Source: Cellvibrionales bacterium (GTDB taxonomy: Bacteria > Pseudomonadota > Gammaproteobacteria > Pseudomonadales > JAHEIH01). Taken from it: DNA of 33,916 nt. This document shows, in pieces, positions 118 to 6,619 of the stretch. The stretch spans positions 485,630 through 519,545 of the forward strand of contig JAHEIH010000026.1 in the NCBI GenBank assembly GCA_024639455.1. The letters run 5' to 3'. The translations under genes were made by a program, and so were the position numbers. Under the pieces are notes generated by a model. It searched no databases. It was not told the origin of the DNA and was given only the letters and a program-made list of their open reading frames with translations. Position 1 is the first letter of the stretch. Each line of letters starts with the position of its first letter.

Positions 118-1107
118 ATGAAAAACGGTCGTGGCATGAAACCATTGCTCATCCTAATCTTGTGGTTCGCTAGCTACTCCCATGCTCTGGGGGACGAGAT
201 GCGCCCAGCGGCGTTGCGTCTGCACGCGCTTGAAAACGGCGCTACCGCGGTGACTTGGCAGTTACCGCTGGCGAATAACGAGCGACGATTGCCGTTGCGC
301 CTCGCTCTGAATGGGTCCCTGTTAGATGAATCTAAGGCGACAGGTTATCGCCAAGGAACCTATTGGATCAGCCGGCAGCAGGTTGACCTGCCGACTCCGT
401 TTAGCGTACAGGTGGGCGGCTTAACCGACACCAATACCGAATTGTTGATTAGTTTGGATTACCCCAGCGGCGAGCGAGCTACCCATCGACTGCAATCAGA
501 TAGTGAGATGCTGGATGTGGATTGGCGAGCTGGCAGTGGGGTCGGCATTTGGGCCTATATTGGATTAGGCGTCGAGCATATTTTGATCGGCGCTGACCAT
601 CTGCTATTTGTAGCCGCGTTGATGTTACTAGTGACGCAAATGCGTATGCTGGTATGGGCCATTACGTCGTTCACACTTGCACACAGTCTGACCTTGGGCG
701 CGGCATCTATGGGATGGTTGCAGTTGCCCATTGCACCAGTGGAAGCGGTCATCGCGCTGAGCATTGTGTTTGTAGCGCGTGAAGTGGTGATGCGTGAGCG
801 TGGCCAGACGGATATTTCATCGCGACAACCTTGGTTGGTCGCCTTTTGTTTTGGCTTATTACATGGCCTAGGATTTGCCTCGGTATTGGCTGATATCGGT
901 TTGCCTGAGGACGCTCGCGTGGCGGCGCTGCTACTATTTAATGTCGGAGTAGAAGTCGGGCAGTTGTTGTTTGTAGGTGTGCTGTTGGGGGTATGGTATA
1001 TGGCTCGCAAAGTCTTGCCCGCGGACTGGCTTAACCCGGTGGCACCCTCTTACGCCATTGGCGCGGTGGCTGCCTTTTGGATGATTGAACGGACGATTTG
1101 GTTTTAA
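118..1107 (+). CDS. HupE/UreJ-like multi-pass membrane protein
   Basis: The N-terminus looks like a signal peptide (basic start, leucine-rich core, SHA-LG cleavage-like site), followed by a roughly 130-residue soluble, probably periplasmic part and then six or so hydrophobic segments. The membrane part carries blocks I associate with the HupE/UreJ_2 family: GVEHILIGADHLLF, SFTLAHSLTL, FGLLHGLGFA and a final GAVAAFWMIER. These His/Asp/Glu-rich helices suggest a metal-linked transporter, since HupE/UreJ relatives are proposed nickel permeases, but the substrate here is unknown. The stop overlaps the next start as TAATG, so translation is probably coupled. The start is uncertain: ATG 118 and ATG 136 both give a signal peptide, while ATG 22 has the best Shine-Dalgarno (AAAGG) but adds an unlikely leader. 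Confidence 0.8.
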   Translation: MKNGRGMKPLLILILWFASYSHALGDEMRPAALRLHALENGATAVTWQLPLANNERRLPLRLALNGSLLDESKATGYRQGTYWISRQQVDLPTPFSVQVGGLTDTNTELLISLDYPSGERATHRLQSDSEMLDVDWRAGSGVGIWAYIGLGVEHILIGADHLLFVAALMLLVTQMRMLVWAITSFTLAHSLTLGAASMGWLQLPIAPVEAVIALSIVFVAREVVMRERGQTDISSRQPWLVAFCFGLLHGLGFASVLADIGLPEDARVAALLLFNVGVEVGQLLFVGVLLGVWYMARKVLPADWLNPVAPSYAIGAVAAFWMIERTIWF

Positions 1108-1913
1108 TGAAAAGACTACTAAAAGAACCGCTATTGCATTTCCTTTTTTTGGGGGCATTAATTTTTGCTGTATACCAATGGCGGCAGGGGGCCACTGACG
1201 AAGGTGCTCTCGTCGTTAGCGCAGCCACGGTAGAGCAATTGGCCAGCCAATACCGCAAGACTTGGCTTAAGGAACCCGATCGAGCGACGTTACAGCAAGC
1301 GGTCGACAACCACATTGCCAACCTGTTATTTGCCGAAAGTGGCTTTGCGATGGCTATGCACAAAGACGACCCAGTGGTGGCACGACGTATGCGCATGAAG
1401 GTAGAAATGCTCAACGACCTGTTAATTGATCCGACGACTGAGCAGGAAGTTAGTGCTTACTTCAAAGAGAATATCCAGGCCTATACCGGTGGCGGTCGCT
1501 ACAGTCTTGAACAGCGTTTTTTTTCCAAGTCGGTGCCTGAAATAGAGCTTGCTGAGGTGTTAAATGCGTTACAAAACGGCGATGATGTCGCCTCGCAACC
1601 GAGTTTGTTTAACGACAGCTATGTGGATGCCTCTGAGCAACAATTGGCGCGGGCATTTGGCAGTGCCTTCGCTGAGCAGATCCTCGCACTTTCGTTAGGT
1701 ACGTGGCAGGGCCCCATGGCGAGCCCTTTGGGTTGGCATTTTATTAAATTGACCCAGCGGGTAGAGGCGTCACCGCCTTCCTTGGAGACGATTTATAACC
1801 AAGTGCAGCGCGATGCCACAGATGCCAAGCGCGCGATGGCAAGAAAACAATTTCAACAACAACTCATCGATAGTCGCCACGTGGTGATTGAATGGCCGGA
1901 GACCCTGCAATGA
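1107..1913 (+). CDS. Membrane-anchored parvulin-like (PpiC family) protein
   Basis: 268 residues. One N-terminal hydrophobic segment (about residues 8-24) anchors a soluble domain. The C-terminal half resembles the end of a parvulin prolyl isomerase domain: the segment with LGTWQGPMASPLGWHFIKL matches the usual end of PpiC domains (GxxxGPVxSxxGWHIIKV). The first part of the domain is short and the usual His-containing ASHILV strand reads YSLEQRFF, so catalysis is doubtful and a chaperone-like role is possible. The start ATG overlaps the upstream stop (TAATG) and its own stop overlaps the next start (ATGA), placing it mid-operon. An inference is that it helps fold or tether the secreted DUF3604 protein. 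A TTG start nine bases upstream is less likely. Confidence 0.75.
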   Translation: MKRLLKEPLLHFLFLGALIFAVYQWRQGATDEGALVVSAATVEQLASQYRKTWLKEPDRATLQQAVDNHIANLLFAESGFAMAMHKDDPVVARRMRMKVEMLNDLLIDPTTEQEVSAYFKENIQAYTGGGRYSLEQRFFSKSVPEIELAEVLNALQNGDDVASQPSLFNDSYVDASEQQLARAFGSAFAEQILALSLGTWQGPMASPLGWHFIKLTQRVEASPPSLETIYNQVQRDATDAKRAMARKQFQQQLIDSRHVVIEWPETLQ

Positions 1914-3766
1914 AAGCTCTCGTCGTACTGAGTATATTCGCGTTATTACCGGGCCTAGCTCAGGCACAAAAAGTGTATTCGCCCCGAGCTTCAGCAGATG
2001 TTCCCACACAGTTATTGTTCGGAGATCTGCATTTGCATACCTCGTATTCCACCGACGCAGGGATGGTTGGGGCGAGTTTGGGGCCTGCTGAAGCCTATCG
2101 CTTTGCGCGGGGTGAAAAGTTGGTCTCTAATTTTGGTTCGCCGGTACAGATCGCGCGTCCATTGGATTTTTTGGCGGTGACCGACCACGCCGAGAATCTC
2201 GGTTTAGCGCCGATGGTAGTGCGCTCCGATCCTGAGTTATTTAAGTCGGCGTGGGGGTGGCGCGTGCACGACGCCTATAAATCGGGTAATCAAACCGGTG
2301 CCTATGGGATGTGGATTGCGGCTAAGAATACCGGCAAAGATCCATTGGCAGGATTTGATTCAGTCGCGCGCCAGGCGTGGCAGGACATTGTGGCCGCAGC
2401 AGAACATTACAATGATCCTGGGCAGTTTACTGCGTTGATCGGCTACGAGTGGACATCCGCGCCAGGCGGTGACAACTTACATCGCAACGTTATTTTCAAA
2501 GGCGGGGCCGAGCACGCCTTACAAACGCTACCGTTTTCCCTGTTTGATAGTGAGGATCCTGAAGCCCTTTGGCAGTGGATGAATAGCTATCAACTGCAAA
2601 CGGGTGATCGCGTGTTGGCGATTCCCCACAACAGCAATTTATCGGTTGGCCGAATGTTTGCCGATAGGCGTTTTGATGGTTCTGCCATTGATAAAGAATA
2701 CGCCTTGCAGCGCCAGCGCTTTGAACCGATTTATGAGACGACTCAGGCCAAGGGCGATAGTGAAACCCACCCTGTATTATCACCCAACGATGAATTCGCT
2801 GATTTCGAAACCTGGGATGTCGGTGGCTTTGGTGCCGCACCACACAATACGGGGATGTTGGCCGCTGAATACACGCGTTCGGCCTATAAGCGTGGTCTTC
2901 AGTTTCAGCAGCAGATCGGCGCTAATCCCTTCCGCTTTGGTCTCATTGGCAGCACGGACTCCCACACGGCATTGGCCACGGCATCAGAAGATAATTGGTT
3001 TGGCAAGGTGGCCATGTTTGAACCCTCGCGCCGCGACATGCGCTTTAGCGAGAAAATTCTGGGCCGAATTCCCGCCAGCGACGGCAGTGATAACAGCGCG
3101 CTTTCGGTGGAGTCTAGCGCTAGTGGGCTGACGGCGGTATGGGCCAAAGCAAACACGCGCGAAGACATTTGGGATGCTTTAAACAACAAAGAAACTTACG
3201 CCACCACCGGTAGTCGCATTGGCTTGCGCTTATTTGCGGGTTTTGAGTTCACCGTTGAGGATGTTACCCAATCAGATTTTGCCGAGCGCGGCTATGCCAA
3301 TGGTGTTCCGATGGGAGGCACACTTCAGGCAATGGCGGACAAAGTGCCTGGGTTGATTATTCGTGCCCAAGCTGATCCACAAGGGGCTTTTTTGGATCGC
3401 GTACAGGTCATTAAGTTGTGGGTCGATGCGCAGGGTGAAAGCCATGAGCGAATCTTTGATGTGGCTGTATCGGGTGACCGAGAGGCCGATGCCTCAGGGC
3501 GAGTAAACGCGGCCGTTGGTAACACCGTAGATATCGAGCGCGCCACGTATAGCAATAGCATTGGCGAAGCTGTGCTGATGGCCTTTTGGCAGGACCCACA
3601 ATACGATCCTAAACAACACGCTATGTACTACGTACGTGTACTAGAAATCCCAACCCCCCGTTGGTCTACCAAGGACGCGGTGTTCTATGGAGAGCCACTG
3701 CCCGAGAGAGTACCCGCCACCATTCAAGAGCGCGCCTACAGCTCACCGGTGTGGATCAATCCATAG
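1910..3766 (+). CDS. Secreted DUF3604 protein (PHP-like metal-dependent fold)
   Basis: 618 residues with a clear signal peptide (LVVLSIFALLPGLAQAQ). Motifs typical of DUF3604 and the PHP phosphoesterase superfamily follow: GDLHLHTSYSTDAG (His41, His43), LAVTDHAENLG (Asp92, His93), LIGYEWTS, AIPHNSN and LIGSTDSHTA near residue 350. These His/Asp/Glu positions could bind two or three metal ions. The substrate is not known and cannot be read from the sequence. ATG 1910 was chosen because it overlaps the upstream stop as ATGA and directly begins the signal peptide; the in-frame ATG at 1892 would only add six residues in front of it. It ends in TAG, and the same frame stays open into a small downstream ORF. 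Confidence 0.85.
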   Translation: MKALVVLSIFALLPGLAQAQKVYSPRASADVPTQLLFGDLHLHTSYSTDAGMVGASLGPAEAYRFARGEKLVSNFGSPVQIARPLDFLAVTDHAENLGLAPMVVRSDPELFKSAWGWRVHDAYKSGNQTGAYGMWIAAKNTGKDPLAGFDSVARQAWQDIVAAAEHYNDPGQFTALIGYEWTSAPGGDNLHRNVIFKGGAEHALQTLPFSLFDSEDPEALWQWMNSYQLQTGDRVLAIPHNSNLSVGRMFADRRFDGSAIDKEYALQRQRFEPIYETTQAKGDSETHPVLSPNDEFADFETWDVGGFGAAPHNTGMLAAEYTRSAYKRGLQFQQQIGANPFRFGLIGSTDSHTALATASEDNWFGKVAMFEPSRRDMRFSEKILGRIPASDGSDNSALSVESSASGLTAVWAKANTREDIWDALNNKETYATTGSRIGLRLFAGFEFTVEDVTQSDFAERGYANGVPMGGTLQAMADKVPGLIIRAQADPQGAFLDRVQVIKLWVDAQGESHERIFDVAVSGDREADASGRVNAAVGNTVDIERATYSNSIGEAVLMAFWQDPQYDPKQHAMYYVRVLEIPTPRWSTKDAVFYGEPLPERVPATIQERAYSSPVWINP

Positions 3767-3777
3767 CCTTTTAAGCC

Positions 3778-3801
3778 AGTCGCATGCTTTGTCATGCGAC
3801 T
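3778..3801 (+). promoter_or_regulatory. Hairpin covering the start codon of the small ORF
   Basis: A perfect 9-bp inverted repeat: AGTCGCATG at 3778-3786, a six-base loop, then CATGCGACT at 3793-3801. No T-tract follows, so it does not look like an intrinsic terminator. Its 3' arm contains the ATG (3794) of the small ORF, and its 5' arm begins 12 bases after the DUF3604 stop codon, within reach of a terminating ribosome. Coupled initiation or stop-codon readthrough control are inferences; the hairpin itself is directly visible. Confidence 0.55.
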
Positions 3802-3961
3802 GTCATTATACAAGCAGTATGCGGAATTGTGTGACCCGGAGGGGCTGGTTTTCATGGACTACGGCGTCGATCCCGATTTTGCCGATGCCATCGATAGCCT
3901 AATTATGATGGATACCTACCATCTGACTGAAGCAAAGCAGCAGCGTTATTTAGGACAATAA
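3794..3961 (+). CDS. Small hypothetical protein, 55 residues
   Basis: A 55-codon ORF starting MRLSLYKQYAELCDPEG and ending QQRYLGQ before TAA. It is acidic, has no signal peptide or membrane segment, and its composition looks like a real folded protein: a dense run of Asp around VDPDFADAID, with aromatic and charged residues evenly spread. It lies in the same frame as the DUF3604 gene, nine sense codons beyond its TAG. A rho-independent terminator follows 25 bases after its stop, so it would be the last gene of the operon. I see no Shine-Dalgarno sequence, and the ATG sits in a hairpin arm. I do not recognise the family; no function is proposed. Confidence 0.65.
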   Translation: MRLSLYKQYAELCDPEGLVFMDYGVDPDFADAIDSLIMMDTYHLTEAKQQRYLGQ

Positions 3962-3986
3962 CAATACGTTCACGGAAGAACATTCG

Positions 3987-4008
3987 GGCGCCAGATGGCG
4001 CCTTTTTT
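3987..4008 (+). terminator. Rho-independent terminator ending the DUF3604 operon
   Basis: GGCGCC (3987-3992), loop AGAT, GGCGCC (3997-4002), immediately followed by six T (4003-4008). This is a compact canonical intrinsic terminator on the plus strand. Confidence 0.85.
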
Positions 4009-4185: not shown

Positions 4186-4617
4186 ATGAATCTCAAAGGA
4201 ACTAAAACGGAAGAAAATTTGAAAGAAGCATTTGCTGGAGAGTCACAGGCTAACCGTCGTTACCTGTACTTCGCCAACATGGCTGATATCCAGGGCGCTC
4301 CAGAAGTTGCCAACGTATTCCGCAACACCGCGGAAGGCGAAACCGGTCACGCCCACGGCCACATGGAATACTTGATCAGCGGCGGCGCAGGTGAGCCCGG
4401 CACTGGTATGCCTGCAGGCTCAGTAGCGGAAGCGCTGGAAGCAGCTATTGCTGGTGAAACCCACGAGTACACTGACATGTACCCCGGTATGGCTAAAGCG
4501 GCTCGCGAAGAAGGCTTCGACGAGATTGCTGACTGGTTTGAAACCCTGGCCAAAGCTGAGCGCAGCCACGCTAATAAGTTCCAGAAAACCCTGGACGCTT
4601 ATAAAGCGGAAGCTTAA
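4186..4617 (+). CDS. Rubrerythrin-family diiron protein without rubredoxin domain
   Basis: 143 residues, a four-helix ferritin-like domain only. The diiron ligands of rubrerythrins can be placed: Glu19 (AGESQAN), Glu52/His55 (EGETGHAH), Glu91/Glu94 (GETHEY) and Glu125/His128 (AERSHAN). The C-terminal rubredoxin FeCys4 domain of classical rubrerythrins is absent, as the protein stops at LDAYKAEA. Family members reduce hydrogen peroxide using electrons from a rubredoxin-like donor, so an external donor is needed; the adjacent Fe-S protein is a candidate. Start ATG 4186 has a perfect AGGAG (4174-4178) seven bases away, whereas an upstream in-frame codon would add only unrelated residues. Cytoplasmic; first gene of a three-gene operon. 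Confidence 0.93.
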
Positions 4618-4630
4618 TCGCGCTACCTTC

Positions 4631-4651
4631 GAGCTGGGTATCGCCCAGCTC
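4631..4651 (+). other. Intercistronic hairpin after the rubrerythrin gene
   Basis: GAGCTGGG (4631-4638), loop TATCG, CCCAGCTC (4644-4651). This is a perfect 8-bp stem with no T-tract, 13 bases after the rubrerythrin stop and 32 before the next start. It may stabilise the upstream mRNA segment or attenuate readthrough, giving more rubrerythrin than Fe-S protein. Confidence 0.5.
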
Positions 4652-4683
4652 GTCCCCATTCTGCACACCGCCGGAGCATAATA

Positions 4684-6021
4684 ATGAGCACACCGAAAGA
4701 AGGAAATCTCGAGGCGCCCACCAGACATCCTATCGACTGGAAGAACCCGGAATACTACAACCGTGAAAAACTCGACGCAGAATTGGAGCGCGTGTTTGAT
4801 ATTTGCCACGGTTGCCGTCGTTGCCACAGTCTTTGCGATGCATTCCCCACCCTATTCGACTTGGTGGATGAAAGTGACACCATGGAAATGGATGGCGTCG
4901 ACAAGGCCGACTACATCAAGGTGGTTGACCAGTGTTACCTGTGCGATATGTGCTATGTGGCGAAGTGCCCCTACGTGCCGCCCCACCCCTTTAACCTAGA
5001 TTTTCCGCATTTGATGCTACAAGCCAAAGCGGTTGAGACCAAACAAAAGGGTTTGTCGTTCCGCGATAAATTCCTATCGGATACCGACGGTACGGGTAAA
5101 TTGGCGGGCATTCCCGTTATTTCAGAAACCATTAATATCGTGAACCAGTGGACACCCACCCGCAAGGTGTTAGCCGCAACGCTTGGCGTTGATGAGGCGG
5201 CGTGGATTCCCCCACTGGCGAGCAAAAAATTACGCAGCACCGCTAAACCTAAGGCGATCGAGCCGGTCACTGGCGAGCGCACGCCCGGCAAGGTAGGCTT
5301 GTTTGCCACTTGCTACGTGAACTACAACGAACCCGGGATTGGCGAAGATTTAATCGCCGTACTGGAGCACAACGATATCGCCTGGAGCTTTGCCGAAAAA
5401 GAGGTGTGCTGTGGCATGCCCAAGCTTGAACAGGGTGACTTAGAAGGCGTAGAAGCCTTGGTGCGCGTTAATATTCCACGCTTGGCGAAATTGGCCCGAG
5501 AGGGCTATGCGCTGATGTCAGCGGTGCCAAGTTGTACGCTGATGTTTAAACAGGAAATCCCTTTGCTGTTCCCCGATGACGAGGATGTTCAAGCTGTCAA
5601 AGAGGCCTTTTGGGATCCCTTTGAATACTTATTGGCGCGCCAGAAAGATGGCCTGCTGAAGGGTGAATTGAAGCATGGCTTGGGTAAGGTGTCCTATCAC
5701 GTTCCCTGTCACGGACGTGTGCAAAACATCGGTAAGAAAACCGAAGAAATGCTAAAGCAAATCCCTGATACCGAAATTAATACCGTGGAGCGTTGCAGTG
5801 GTCACGCTGGTACCTACGGGGTTAAGAAAGAATTTCACGCCCACGCGATGAAGATTGGTCGTCCAGTGTTCCGCCAAATGAGCAGCAACGAGCCTGACTA
5901 TATTTCGAGCGACTGCCCCTTGGGCGGCGCGCACATCGCTGAAGGTATTGAGAAAAACCACCAACAGACACCGCAAAAGGCCCACCCAATTAGCTTGTTG
6001 CGGAAGTCGTACGGAATTTAG
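4684..6021 (+). CDS. GlpC/HdrD-like iron-sulfur oxidoreductase subunit
   Basis: 445 residues with the layout of GlpC and heterodisulfide-reductase-related proteins. The N-terminal dicluster ferredoxin region has Cys41, 44, 47, 51 and then Cys84, 87, 90, 95 followed by Pro. Two cysteine-rich CCG-type domains follow: the first has GLFATCY and EVCCGMPKLE; the second has YHVPCHGR, ERCSGHAGTYG and SSDCPLGG, with Ser replacing one Cys of the usual CCG. No membrane anchor or flavin-binding motif was seen. In this context it probably passes electrons to or from the rubrerythrin; that is inference from adjacency and the missing rubredoxin domain. GGAG (4673-4676) sits seven bases before ATG 4684. The next gene follows after 13 bases. 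Confidence 0.88.
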   Translation: MSTPKEGNLEAPTRHPIDWKNPEYYNREKLDAELERVFDICHGCRRCHSLCDAFPTLFDLVDESDTMEMDGVDKADYIKVVDQCYLCDMCYVAKCPYVPPHPFNLDFPHLMLQAKAVETKQKGLSFRDKFLSDTDGTGKLAGIPVISETINIVNQWTPTRKVLAATLGVDEAAWIPPLASKKLRSTAKPKAIEPVTGERTPGKVGLFATCYVNYNEPGIGEDLIAVLEHNDIAWSFAEKEVCCGMPKLEQGDLEGVEALVRVNIPRLAKLAREGYALMSAVPSCTLMFKQEIPLLFPDDEDVQAVKEAFWDPFEYLLARQKDGLLKGELKHGLGKVSYHVPCHGRVQNIGKKTEEMLKQIPDTEINTVERCSGHAGTYGVKKEFHAHAMKIGRPVFRQMSSNEPDYISSDCPLGGAHIAEGIEKNHQQTPQKAHPISLLRKSYGI

Positions 6022-6034
6022 AGGAGAAAAAATC

Positions 6035-6619
6035 ATGGTTAAGATCGCCCGTGACTCATTGATGTCGCTTGAGACTTACCACCGCGAGCGTCCTGATTTT
6101 CGTCAAAAGGCCTTGCAGCACCGCCGCGTGCGCACGGTGTTTATTGGTCCCAATGTGACGCTACAGTTTGAGGACGAGTTGACGATTCGCTACCAGATCC
6201 AAGAGATGCTGCGTATCGAAAAGACCTTCGACGACGAGGGTATACAGGATGAATTGGATGCCTATAACCCATTGGTTCCCGATGGATGTAACTTGAAAGG
6301 CACCATGTTGATCGAGTTTGTCGATGTTGAAGAACGCAAGCGCGAATTAGCCAAGCTTAGCGGTATTGAGCACCGCACATATATTCAGGTCAGTGGTCAC
6401 GATCGCGTCTACGCGATCGCTGATGAGGACTTAGAGCGCAGCACCGAAGAAAAGACCAGTGCGGTTCACTTCATGCGTTTTGAATTTACCTCAGAGATGA
6501 TCGTAGCGGTTAAATCAGGCGCCGCGATCGCGATGGGTGTGGATCACAAAAACTACAGCCACCGGGTCGACGAAATTGCCCCCGAGACCCAGGGTTCACT
6601 GGCGCAAGATTTTCATTAA
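6035..6619 (+). CDS. DUF3501 family protein
   Basis: 194 residues, soluble, with no signal peptide. I recognise the family (DUF3501) by its opening (IARDSLMSLETYHRERPDFR) and by its position behind a rubrerythrin and a GlpC-like Fe-S protein, a trio I recall from other proteobacteria. No catalytic motif or metal-binding cysteine cluster is evident; the C-terminal third has a FTSEMIVAVKSGAAIAMGVDH segment. The function is unknown, with a role in the same peroxide or redox system being likely. ATG 6035 has a strong GAGGAG (6021-6026) eight bases upstream that overlaps the preceding stop. An upstream in-frame ATG at 5948 lies inside the previous gene and is rejected. Confidence 0.85.
   Translation: MVKIARDSLMSLETYHRERPDFRQKALQHRRVRTVFIGPNVTLQFEDELTIRYQIQEMLRIEKTFDDEGIQDELDAYNPLVPDGCNLKGTMLIEFVDVEERKRELAKLSGIEHRTYIQVSGHDRVYAIADEDLERSTEEKTSAVHFMRFEFTSEMIVAVKSGAAIAMGVDHKNYSHRVDEIAPETQGSLAQDFH

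Follow-up and report, generated by a model that had tools for sequence, protein, structure and literature searches.

A conserved three-gene locus links DUF3604 proteins to a parvulin-like PPIase and a HupE/UreJ-2 type membrane protein

We have identified a three-gene locus whose linkage is near-obligate in the sampled genomes, joining a HupE_UreJ_2 gene, a parvulin-type PPIase gene and a DUF3604 gene, in that order, at positions 118-3766 of the window (the whole 33,916-nucleotide stretch of DNA analysed, from a Cellvibrionales bacterium). We propose, tentatively and at somewhat less than an even chance, that this trio is a conserved envelope module in which the PPIase and HupE are metal-and-folding partners of an exported PHP-fold hydrolase, DUF3604.

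Layout and recurrence of the locus

ORF and Pfam searches place three genes on the forward strand: a HupE/UreJ-2 type membrane protein of 329 amino acids (118-1107; PF13795, E 8.2e-48), for which the ATG at 136 is an equally plausible start; a parvulin-like PPIase of 268 amino acids (1107-1913; PF13145, E 6.5e-17); and a DUF3604 protein of 618 amino acids (1910-3766; PF12228, E 3.9e-231). HupE and PPIase overlap by one base (TAATG) and PPIase and DUF3604 by four (ATGA), exactly where the sequence-only reading had seen overlapping frames; the word 'fused' in its title was wrong, as only the genes overlap and the proteins are separate. A perfect 10-bp inverted repeat 3' of the operon (3777-3802, forward strand) is without a T run and was not called a terminator. 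The first downstream terminator-like site on this strand lies at 3986-4003, and three promoter-like sites were observed against 4.3 expected from shuffles.

Among 299 Pseudomonadota genomes, intact DUF3604 occurs in 17 (weak or broken matches in G012, G265, G297 and G378 being excluded), accompanied by a matching PPIase in 16 and by the full trio within 5 kb in 15. Only one of the 282 other genomes scored for a trio-type PPIase, and there it adjoins a broken DUF3604. The resulting table (both 16, one alone 1 and 1, neither 281) gives a Fisher p of 2.2e-24, a value that presumes independent genomes, which these are not; the 17 span 12 family codes. Trio-type PPIases form a separate score class, as the interval between 75.4 and 207 bits is empty and DUF3604-free genomes reach 75.4 bits at most. 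Of the 17 positive genomes, 11 contributed PPIases to the search profile (G262, G297, G355, G369, G385 and G397 did not), and at most eight first-look candidates were scored per genome, so that PPIase absence is less sure than presence.

Trios were found too in Acidobacteria, a Burkholderiales and rhizobial plasmids, and this recurrence across the surveyed genomes rules out a local accident of the window. Rare co-occurrence in neighbourhood surveys had been named as the outcome that would undo the claim that the three genes belong together; the near-exact co-occurrence of DUF3604 and PPIase instead bears that claim out. As the trio recurs in distant bacteria, the partners probably serve the DUF3604 enzyme. 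In 20 genomes picked for a first DUF3604 locus without a partner, a PPIase of at least 113 bits was present in 19, with HupE directly after it in 18; thus, DUF3604 paralogues seem to be served in trans.

A class survey of 143 genomes, in which the PPIase search covered less than the whole genome, yielded 15 with a match and nine with DUF3604 below E 1e-40. The full trio is present in five of these nine (G000, G010, G025, G038 and G087), G005 and G138 have its parts split between contigs, and G093 has only a HupE fragment. Three genomes count against the partner reading: G011 of this survey, with DUF3604 and no HupE match; G435, a MAG with DUF3604 in which the partners were not found; and G257 (listed as 100% complete), whose divergent DUF3604 has an N-terminal membrane stretch and for which neither partner was found with 8 of 25 PPIase candidates scored.

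Three predicted envelope proteins

The DUF3604 protein (769 bits against PF12228, curated cut-off 20.4) is modelled with high confidence (pLDDT 90.6, pTM 0.91) as a PHP-type barrel followed by a C-terminal beta-sandwich, and resembles the PHP structures 3e38 (Z 15.8) and 2anu (Z 15.2). Nine candidate metal ligands, so designated from PHP motifs, lie at 2030-2965 on the forward strand (H41, H43, D92, H93, E180, H191, H240, D350 and H352); across 45 sequences each is either invariant or conserved in at least 90%. Together with the fold, this His/Asp set supports DUF3604 as a predicted PHP-type metallohydrolase, in keeping with the earlier description of a secreted PHP-like protein with a putative metal site. 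It shares the fold and the HxH, DH, H and DxH residues with PHP-type hydrolases (BVU_3505, 3e38; TM0559, 2anu; RNase AM) and CehA/McbA, but unlike them has no PDB relative by sequence. CehA/McbA membership was rejected, as NF038032 scores 18.5 bits, far below its cut-off of 80. Sequence searches of solved structures with DUF3604, HupE and PPIase, and with DUF3604 and HupE profiles, returned nothing usable.

By eye, the DUF3604 leader peptide is Sec-type; a loose twin-arginine regex matched five of 126 DUF3604 N-termini (a set with duplicates and weak matches), and none looks like a clear Tat signal. With a Sec-type leader, DUF3604 would be expected to reach its folded, metal-bound state outside the cytoplasm. 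An importer would carry metal inward, so the suggestion that the enzyme has its own, plain metal importer fits poorly.

HupE (162.5 bits against PF13795, curated cut-off 24.5) is modelled as a beta-sandwich followed by helices (mean pLDDT 87.3). Its predicted periplasmic N-domain (193-540, forward strand; end approximate, signal cleavage by eye) resembles known metal-binding domains, such as the copper/nickel-binding anglerase Ang-1 (9gce; Z 8.0, rmsd 2.6 over 99 aligned residues, borderline by the tool's own note), and also matches ZrgA (8f1b, Z 8.3) and PA4063 (7bgo, Z 7.7). The presumptive first mature residue is His in 45 and Asp in 17 of 62 homologues, and thus one or the other in all 62; in the window it would be Asp (codon 193-195, cleavage judged by eye).

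Close to where the membrane domain begins lies an H-x5-D-H motif (H148, D154 and H155; 577-600, forward strand), a candidate link to nickel/cobalt permease function. H148, D154, H155, H183, E216, H243 and E273 (numbered from the ATG at 136) are invariant in 22 sequences. This conserved His/Asp/Glu set could also suit an exporter that delivers metal outward to the hydrolase, or a membrane enzyme that shares the hydrolase's substrate. An exporter would solve the direction problem, but fold matches of the membrane domain do not rise above background (7vcf, Z 8.3 over 179), and we know of no HupE relative with shown export; we consider this explanation quite improbable. A Foldseek search with HupE gave nothing at E 0.001 or better.

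The PPIase combines an N-terminal hydrophobic anchor, identified by eye, with a parvulin-like domain, as do membrane parvulins of the PrsA/PpiC kind (PF13145). It differs from them in its separate score class and at what we assume to be the parvulin catalytic site: the first His position holds His in 35 and Gln in 21 of 56 PPIases, and the second is His in all 56. The window protein has Gln136 and retains His211; thus, it appears to lack one of the two His expected of a catalytic parvulin.

The pair, its neighbours and competing explanations

We suggest that DUF3604 would be exported as a PHP-fold hydrolase needing metal ions (Zn, Ni, Co or Cu being candidates), and that the membrane-anchored PPIase would take the unfolded protein at the translocon exit, acting as a chaperone perhaps in physical contact with it. 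HupE may supply or control metal at that place, via its N-terminal metal-binding domain and His/Asp-rich membrane domain, and so load the enzyme. The sequence-only reading, an envelope metalloenzyme with importer and folding factor, stands as regards linkage, the PHP enzyme and the metal-binding-like N-domain, and falls short on 'own metal importer'. Counted against the partner reading are the 21 PPIases, the window's included, without the first parvulin His, the lack of a first His in window HupE, pairs that lie near other genes, and the null searches for Rfam families (no match in nine loci) and for metal-regulator boxes (Zur, Fur and NikR consensus; nothing convincing in 21 upstream regions). 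HupE relatives are described as importers, which was also counted against it. Locus L137 has one Zur-like site with five mismatches that was not matched in 60 shuffles, and was not counted as evidence.

PPIase precedes HupE in 67 of 68 distinct pairs, a non-random set of loci gathered for other reasons that overlaps the 11 genomes in the PPIase profile; the window's HupE-first order is the sole exception. PPIase and HupE remain paired in three different gene orders and in one case where DUF3604 lies on the opposite strand, and 23 of the 68 have no DUF3604 within 2.5 kb in the flanking DNA available. These pairs and the solitary DUF3604 paralogues do not bear out the expectation of a fixed ratio of three products. 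The pairs without a near DUF3604 also suit an explanation in which the PPIase folds the periplasmic domain of HupE only, and DUF3604 is a co-regulated catabolic enzyme needing neither, as do the constant order and the 4-base PPIase/HupE overlap in five of six annotated plasmid loci (L198 is annotated with 115 bases). We nevertheless judge this unlikely, as high-scoring PPIases were seen in the 299 only in DUF3604 genomes, save the one with a DUF3604 remnant, and other HupE_UreJ_2 genes manage without: none of 24 class-survey loci, in genomes without a DUF3604 match, has a trio-type PPIase within 1.5 kb. On that count we also rejected the idea that HupE_UreJ_2 genes are generally accompanied by this PPIase.

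In two genomes, L169 and L181, such a pair follows an exported arginase-family enzyme (the two enzymes 59% identical, with leader peptides), an unrelated hydrolase family with the same kind of partners, which we counted for the partner reading. A close relative occurs in one of 378 genomes; it lacks a leader peptide, and the 16 kb of sequence read there contain no pair. The pair might even be a general maturation system, an envelope equivalent of the HypAB and UreDEFG helpers, for metalloenzymes folding outside the cytoplasm. One pair would then serve a cell's DUF3604 paralogues, and exported arginase-fold enzymes would have recruited separate copies; we hold this extension to be doubtful.

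Other neighbours bear on a scavenging explanation, which we regard as rather unlikely: the exported hydrolase degrades an organic, perhaps metal-binding, compound in the periplasm, HupE imports the freed metal, and the PPIase folds the hydrolase or the HupE periplasmic domain. The direction agrees with known HupE import and with the anglerase model of metal capture as given in the covered part of PMC12537917. In both Caulobacteraceae trios (L016 and L019) the pair has TonB receptor genes upstream. Such genes also adjoin the solitary DUF3604 of L018, and the DUF3604-free pair of G376 has TonB receptor, cytochrome c and PepSY genes nearby. Nik/Opp-type ABC and ZigA-like GTPase genes adjoin the Alisedimentitalea pair (L199), and a second HupE gene adjoins the trio of the clover symbiont R. 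leguminosarum WSM1325 (RLEG_RS33255, RS33260 and RS33265). A Novosphingobium pair lies near genes for a Tat-like molybdenum protein and urease, which we counted against the partner reading along with the TonB receptor, Nik/Opp-type ABC and ZigA-like neighbours of the pairs. However, a TonB receptor could equally import the hydrolase's organic substrate, the regulator-box search gave nothing convincing, and TonB receptors are absent from the 25 commonest of 157 Pfam families among 105 neighbours at 34 trio or pair loci. Sulfatase, metallo-beta-lactamase-fold, DUF1254 and DUF1214 genes lead there (genes were called with a home-made caller; one count used 105 of 127 selected neighbours and listed the top 25 of 157 families, the other 112 of 117 and the top 25 of 141).

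Known systems and implications

The closest known protein is the Ang-1 anglerase-HupE/UreJ-2 (RbAng-1a, 9GCE; PMC12537917, covered in part), in which a PF13795 membrane domain is likewise preceded by a beta-sandwich and whose first mature His is matched in the 45 homologues above. Unlike Ang-1, the window N-domain has about 120 rather than about 176 residues, its model is without the three-helix insert, and it would begin with Asp where the covered part of that paper gives an N-terminal His in 100%. Linkage to PPIase and DUF3604 also sets it apart: the main text of PMC12537917 is without the word 'isomerase', and the paper is not among literature matches for 'DUF3604'. The metformin hydrolase operon (hypA-hypB-ureohydrolases-hupE), whose enzyme depends on Ni and HypAB according to the covered part of PMC11399263, is a precedent for the partner reading: there, too, a HupE gene accompanies a metallohydrolase and helpers dedicated to inserting its metal. 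Those helpers are of HypAB type and that HupE is described as a nickel uptake transporter, whereas in the trio the helper is parvulin-like and the enzyme would be exported.

Literature searches on the families of the trio found no publication describing it: DUF3604 gave only a transposon table entry, and PF12228, and 'HupE UreJ' with 'isomerase', gave nothing. PMC5557971 describes a nickel-induced HupE/UreJ gene, with neither PPIase nor DUF among the words of its covered part.

For DUF3604, a family without a known function, these results provide a fold, a putative metal site and partners that are near-obligate in the sample; anglerase-type permeases, described only recently, acquire in it a specific client that can be tested. 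Should metal loading of exported enzymes by the pair prove real, Sec-exported enzymes would have a route to a chosen metal outside the cytoplasm.

Recurrence of the three-gene linkage

The three window genes lie on the forward strand and encode a HupE_UreJ_2 protein (PF13795; 118 or 136 to 1107, the start having two candidate positions), a parvulin-type PPIase (PF13145; 1107-1913) and a DUF3604 protein (PF12228; 1910-3766), joined at TAATG and ATGA, respectively. A Cpn60/GroEL-family gene lies upstream, just before the window (L055:5695-7338, own genome), and rubrerythrin-like, CCG-domain Fe-S protein and DUF3501 genes stand in tandem downstream (4186-6619).

Scanning named genomes with the window's DUF3604 protein gave 51 loci, 12 of which hold all three genes: one in Burkholderiales (DUF3604 truncated by the contig end), seven in Acidobacteria/Vicinamibacteria, one in a Rhodospirillaceae MAG, two in Caulobacteraceae and one in Ruegeria arenilitoris (DUF3604 in two frames). 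Many of the remaining 39 are weak matches or truncated by contig ends. Among 299 Pseudomonadota genomes, PF12228 matches in 21, with an intact strong match (E < 1e-60) in 17, and against a profile of the trio-type PPIase, 20 genes in 17 genomes reach at least 207 bits and nothing else exceeds 75.4 bits. Sixteen genomes are common to both lists; genome G257 has DUF3604 without the PPIase, and in G297 the DUF3604 next to PPIase and HupE is a fragment containing a stop. Of the 17 strong-DUF3604 genomes, 15 hold all three genes within 5 kb, and in G397 the PPIase-HupE pair is ~40 kb from one of two DUF3604 genes. Fisher's p of 2.2e-24 for DUF3604/PPIase co-occurrence is overstated because the genomes are related (17 in 12 family codes). 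These near-matching lists and the 12 loci extend beyond the window the association proposed by the sequence-only reading.

No fourth family common to all trio loci was found. Frames antisense to the trio aside, the widest neighbour recurrences were among related Acidobacteria (seven loci) and of a sulfatase (6 of 39 loci). A 333-aa frame in G012 (C2:46141-46476; L067/L124) fuses positions 1 to ~55 of DUF3604 to the HupE end, as if a deletion had removed the middle of a DUF-PPI-HupE operon.

The PPIase comes first in 67 of 68 distinct PPIase-HupE pairs, the window being the sole case of HupE first. DUF3604 lies within 2.5 kb of 45 of the 68, ordered DUF-PPI-HupE (31), PPI-HupE-DUF (7), with two DUF3604 frames ahead of the pair (4, including the split Ruegeria gene) or in single arrangements (3). 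PPIase and HupE overlap by four bases in five of six annotated plasmid loci. DUF3604 occurs in 79 plasmid records and the PPIase in 74, with 48 records common to both among the matches listed (60 for each); Roseibium NZ_CP045633, PPIase-only among the matches listed, does hold the trio. In Rhodobacteraceae M382, plasmid CP081101 (L187) carries a two-frame DUF3604 near sulfatase and formylglycine-generating enzyme genes, and a trio-type PPIase sits on a different plasmid, CP081100.

Pairs apart from DUF3604 and a second enzyme family

The window's own genome has one trio-type PPIase and a second, solitary DUF3604, intact and 48% identical (G000:C2:29037-30875; L056 and L057 cover the extra copies); a third is disrupted by stops (G000:C13:83497-83924). 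We sampled 20 genomes in which no partner was seen at the first DUF3604 locus. The PPIase is present in 19 (113.9-290 bits), with HupE directly after it in 18; the PPIase-bearing contig of G440 lacks a HupE gene, and neither was found in G435. At 20 pair loci read from 17 of these genomes, another DUF3604 adjoins five, and none occurs on the DNA read in 15. Thus, a single pair may serve several DUF3604 enzymes in trans.

Arginase-family enzymes are di-metal hydrolases. At two loci, in Fluviibacterium sp. MJW13 (L169:8138-9394) and a gammaproteobacterial MAG (L181:7659-8918), an exported member of this family is encoded directly 5' of the pair and downstream of an OprB-type porin gene. The two proteins (419-420 aa, with leader peptides) are 59% identical. 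Cytoplasmic relatives are reported to require Ni and HypAB (PMC11399263). These two loci are our main reason for suggesting that pairs may serve exported metallohydrolases generally; a search of 378 genomes found one close relative, which has no leader and, over the 16 kb read, no pair.

Features of the three proteins

The predicted HupE model (pLDDT 87.3) runs from a signal-like stretch through a beta-sandwich to helices. Its N-domain matches ZrgA (8f1b, Z 8.3), the anglerase Ang-1 (9gce, Z 8.0) and PA4063 (7bgo, Z 7.7), which together fill ranks 2 to 8 of the match table; Z near 8 is borderline, but one match shares the HupE architecture. Ang-1 is reported to bind Cu and Ni via His1 (PMC12537917), whereas the window HupE has Asp at the inferred first mature residue. 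Of 62 HupE sequences (six non-trio), 45 have His at this residue and 17 have Asp. Membrane-domain residues H148, D154, H155, H183, E216, H243 and E273 are kept in 22 of 22 aligned sequences.

The PPIase begins, by eye, with a hydrophobic anchor. The second parvulin His is present in all 56 PPIases; at the first position 35 have His and 21, the window's among them, have Gln, so it is plausible that the window protein acts as a chaperone-like factor instead of a catalyst.

DUF3604 carries a Sec-type leader, as judged by eye, and its good model (pLDDT 90.6, pTM 0.91) has PHP proteins as top fold matches: 3e38 (Z 15.8), 2anu (15.2), EndoQ (12.8), PsfC (12.2) and RNase AM (8.7-8.9). Its conserved residues agree with the PHP motifs (HxH, DH, H, H, DxH). 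Membership of CehA/McbA was rejected, the model match falling far below cut-off. Among the neighbours examined, the 105 at 34 trio or pair loci include six sulfatases, four metallo-beta-lactamase-fold proteins, four DUF1214 and three DUF1254, and the 112 at solitary loci two alkyl sulfatases, two DUF1214 and two DUF1254; this context hints at organic-ester breakdown.

Possible metal handling and role of the pair

TonB receptor genes occur in three alphaproteobacteria, upstream of the pair in two Caulobacteraceae trios (L016:2178-4565; L019:1905-4256) and adjoining a solitary DUF3604 (L018:9890-12346). In G376, TonB receptor, cytochrome c and PepSY genes lie beside a divergent pair without DUF3604. 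A divergent pair type with PF13795 matching in two pieces and no adjoining DUF3604 was seen at L159, L171, L189 and L190. In Alisedimentitalea the pair comes after ABC genes that score best, though below cut-off, against nickel-type ABC models, and after a ZigA-like GTPase gene truncated at the edge of the DNA read. In Rhizobium indicum, PPI-HupE-DUF3604 is followed by genes for a GntH-type metallo-beta-lactamase-fold protein and a CobW-family GTPase (L200:9996-12610), and Novosphingobium RL4 has a Tat-like molybdenum protein-PPI-HupE arrangement with arginase and urease genes opposite. R. leguminosarum WSM1325 carries a second, canonical HupE (PF04955) convergent to the trio (L185:12081-12680).

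These contexts fit metal handling generally, and they fit scavenging, in which the exported hydrolase breaks down a compound and HupE imports the freed metal, as well as enzyme maturation. The proposal that HupE imports the enzyme's own metal meets an objection, as an enzyme exported by Sec would lie across the membrane from the imported metal. The objection lapses if the N-domain passes metal straight on, or if transport runs outward, with HupE as an exporter. The rivals to our preferred reading are such scavenging, an exporting HupE and a PPIase that acts for HupE alone.

In the 5.39 million papers searched, DUF3604 has a single mention, a table entry, and nothing was found with PF12228 or with 'HupE UreJ' plus 'isomerase'. 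The trio is visible side by side in public annotation, yet undescribed in that literature. Its linkage is far surer than the mechanism, for which our leading but tentative reading is that the PPIase-HupE pair would act as a metal-and-folding partner of exported hydrolases.
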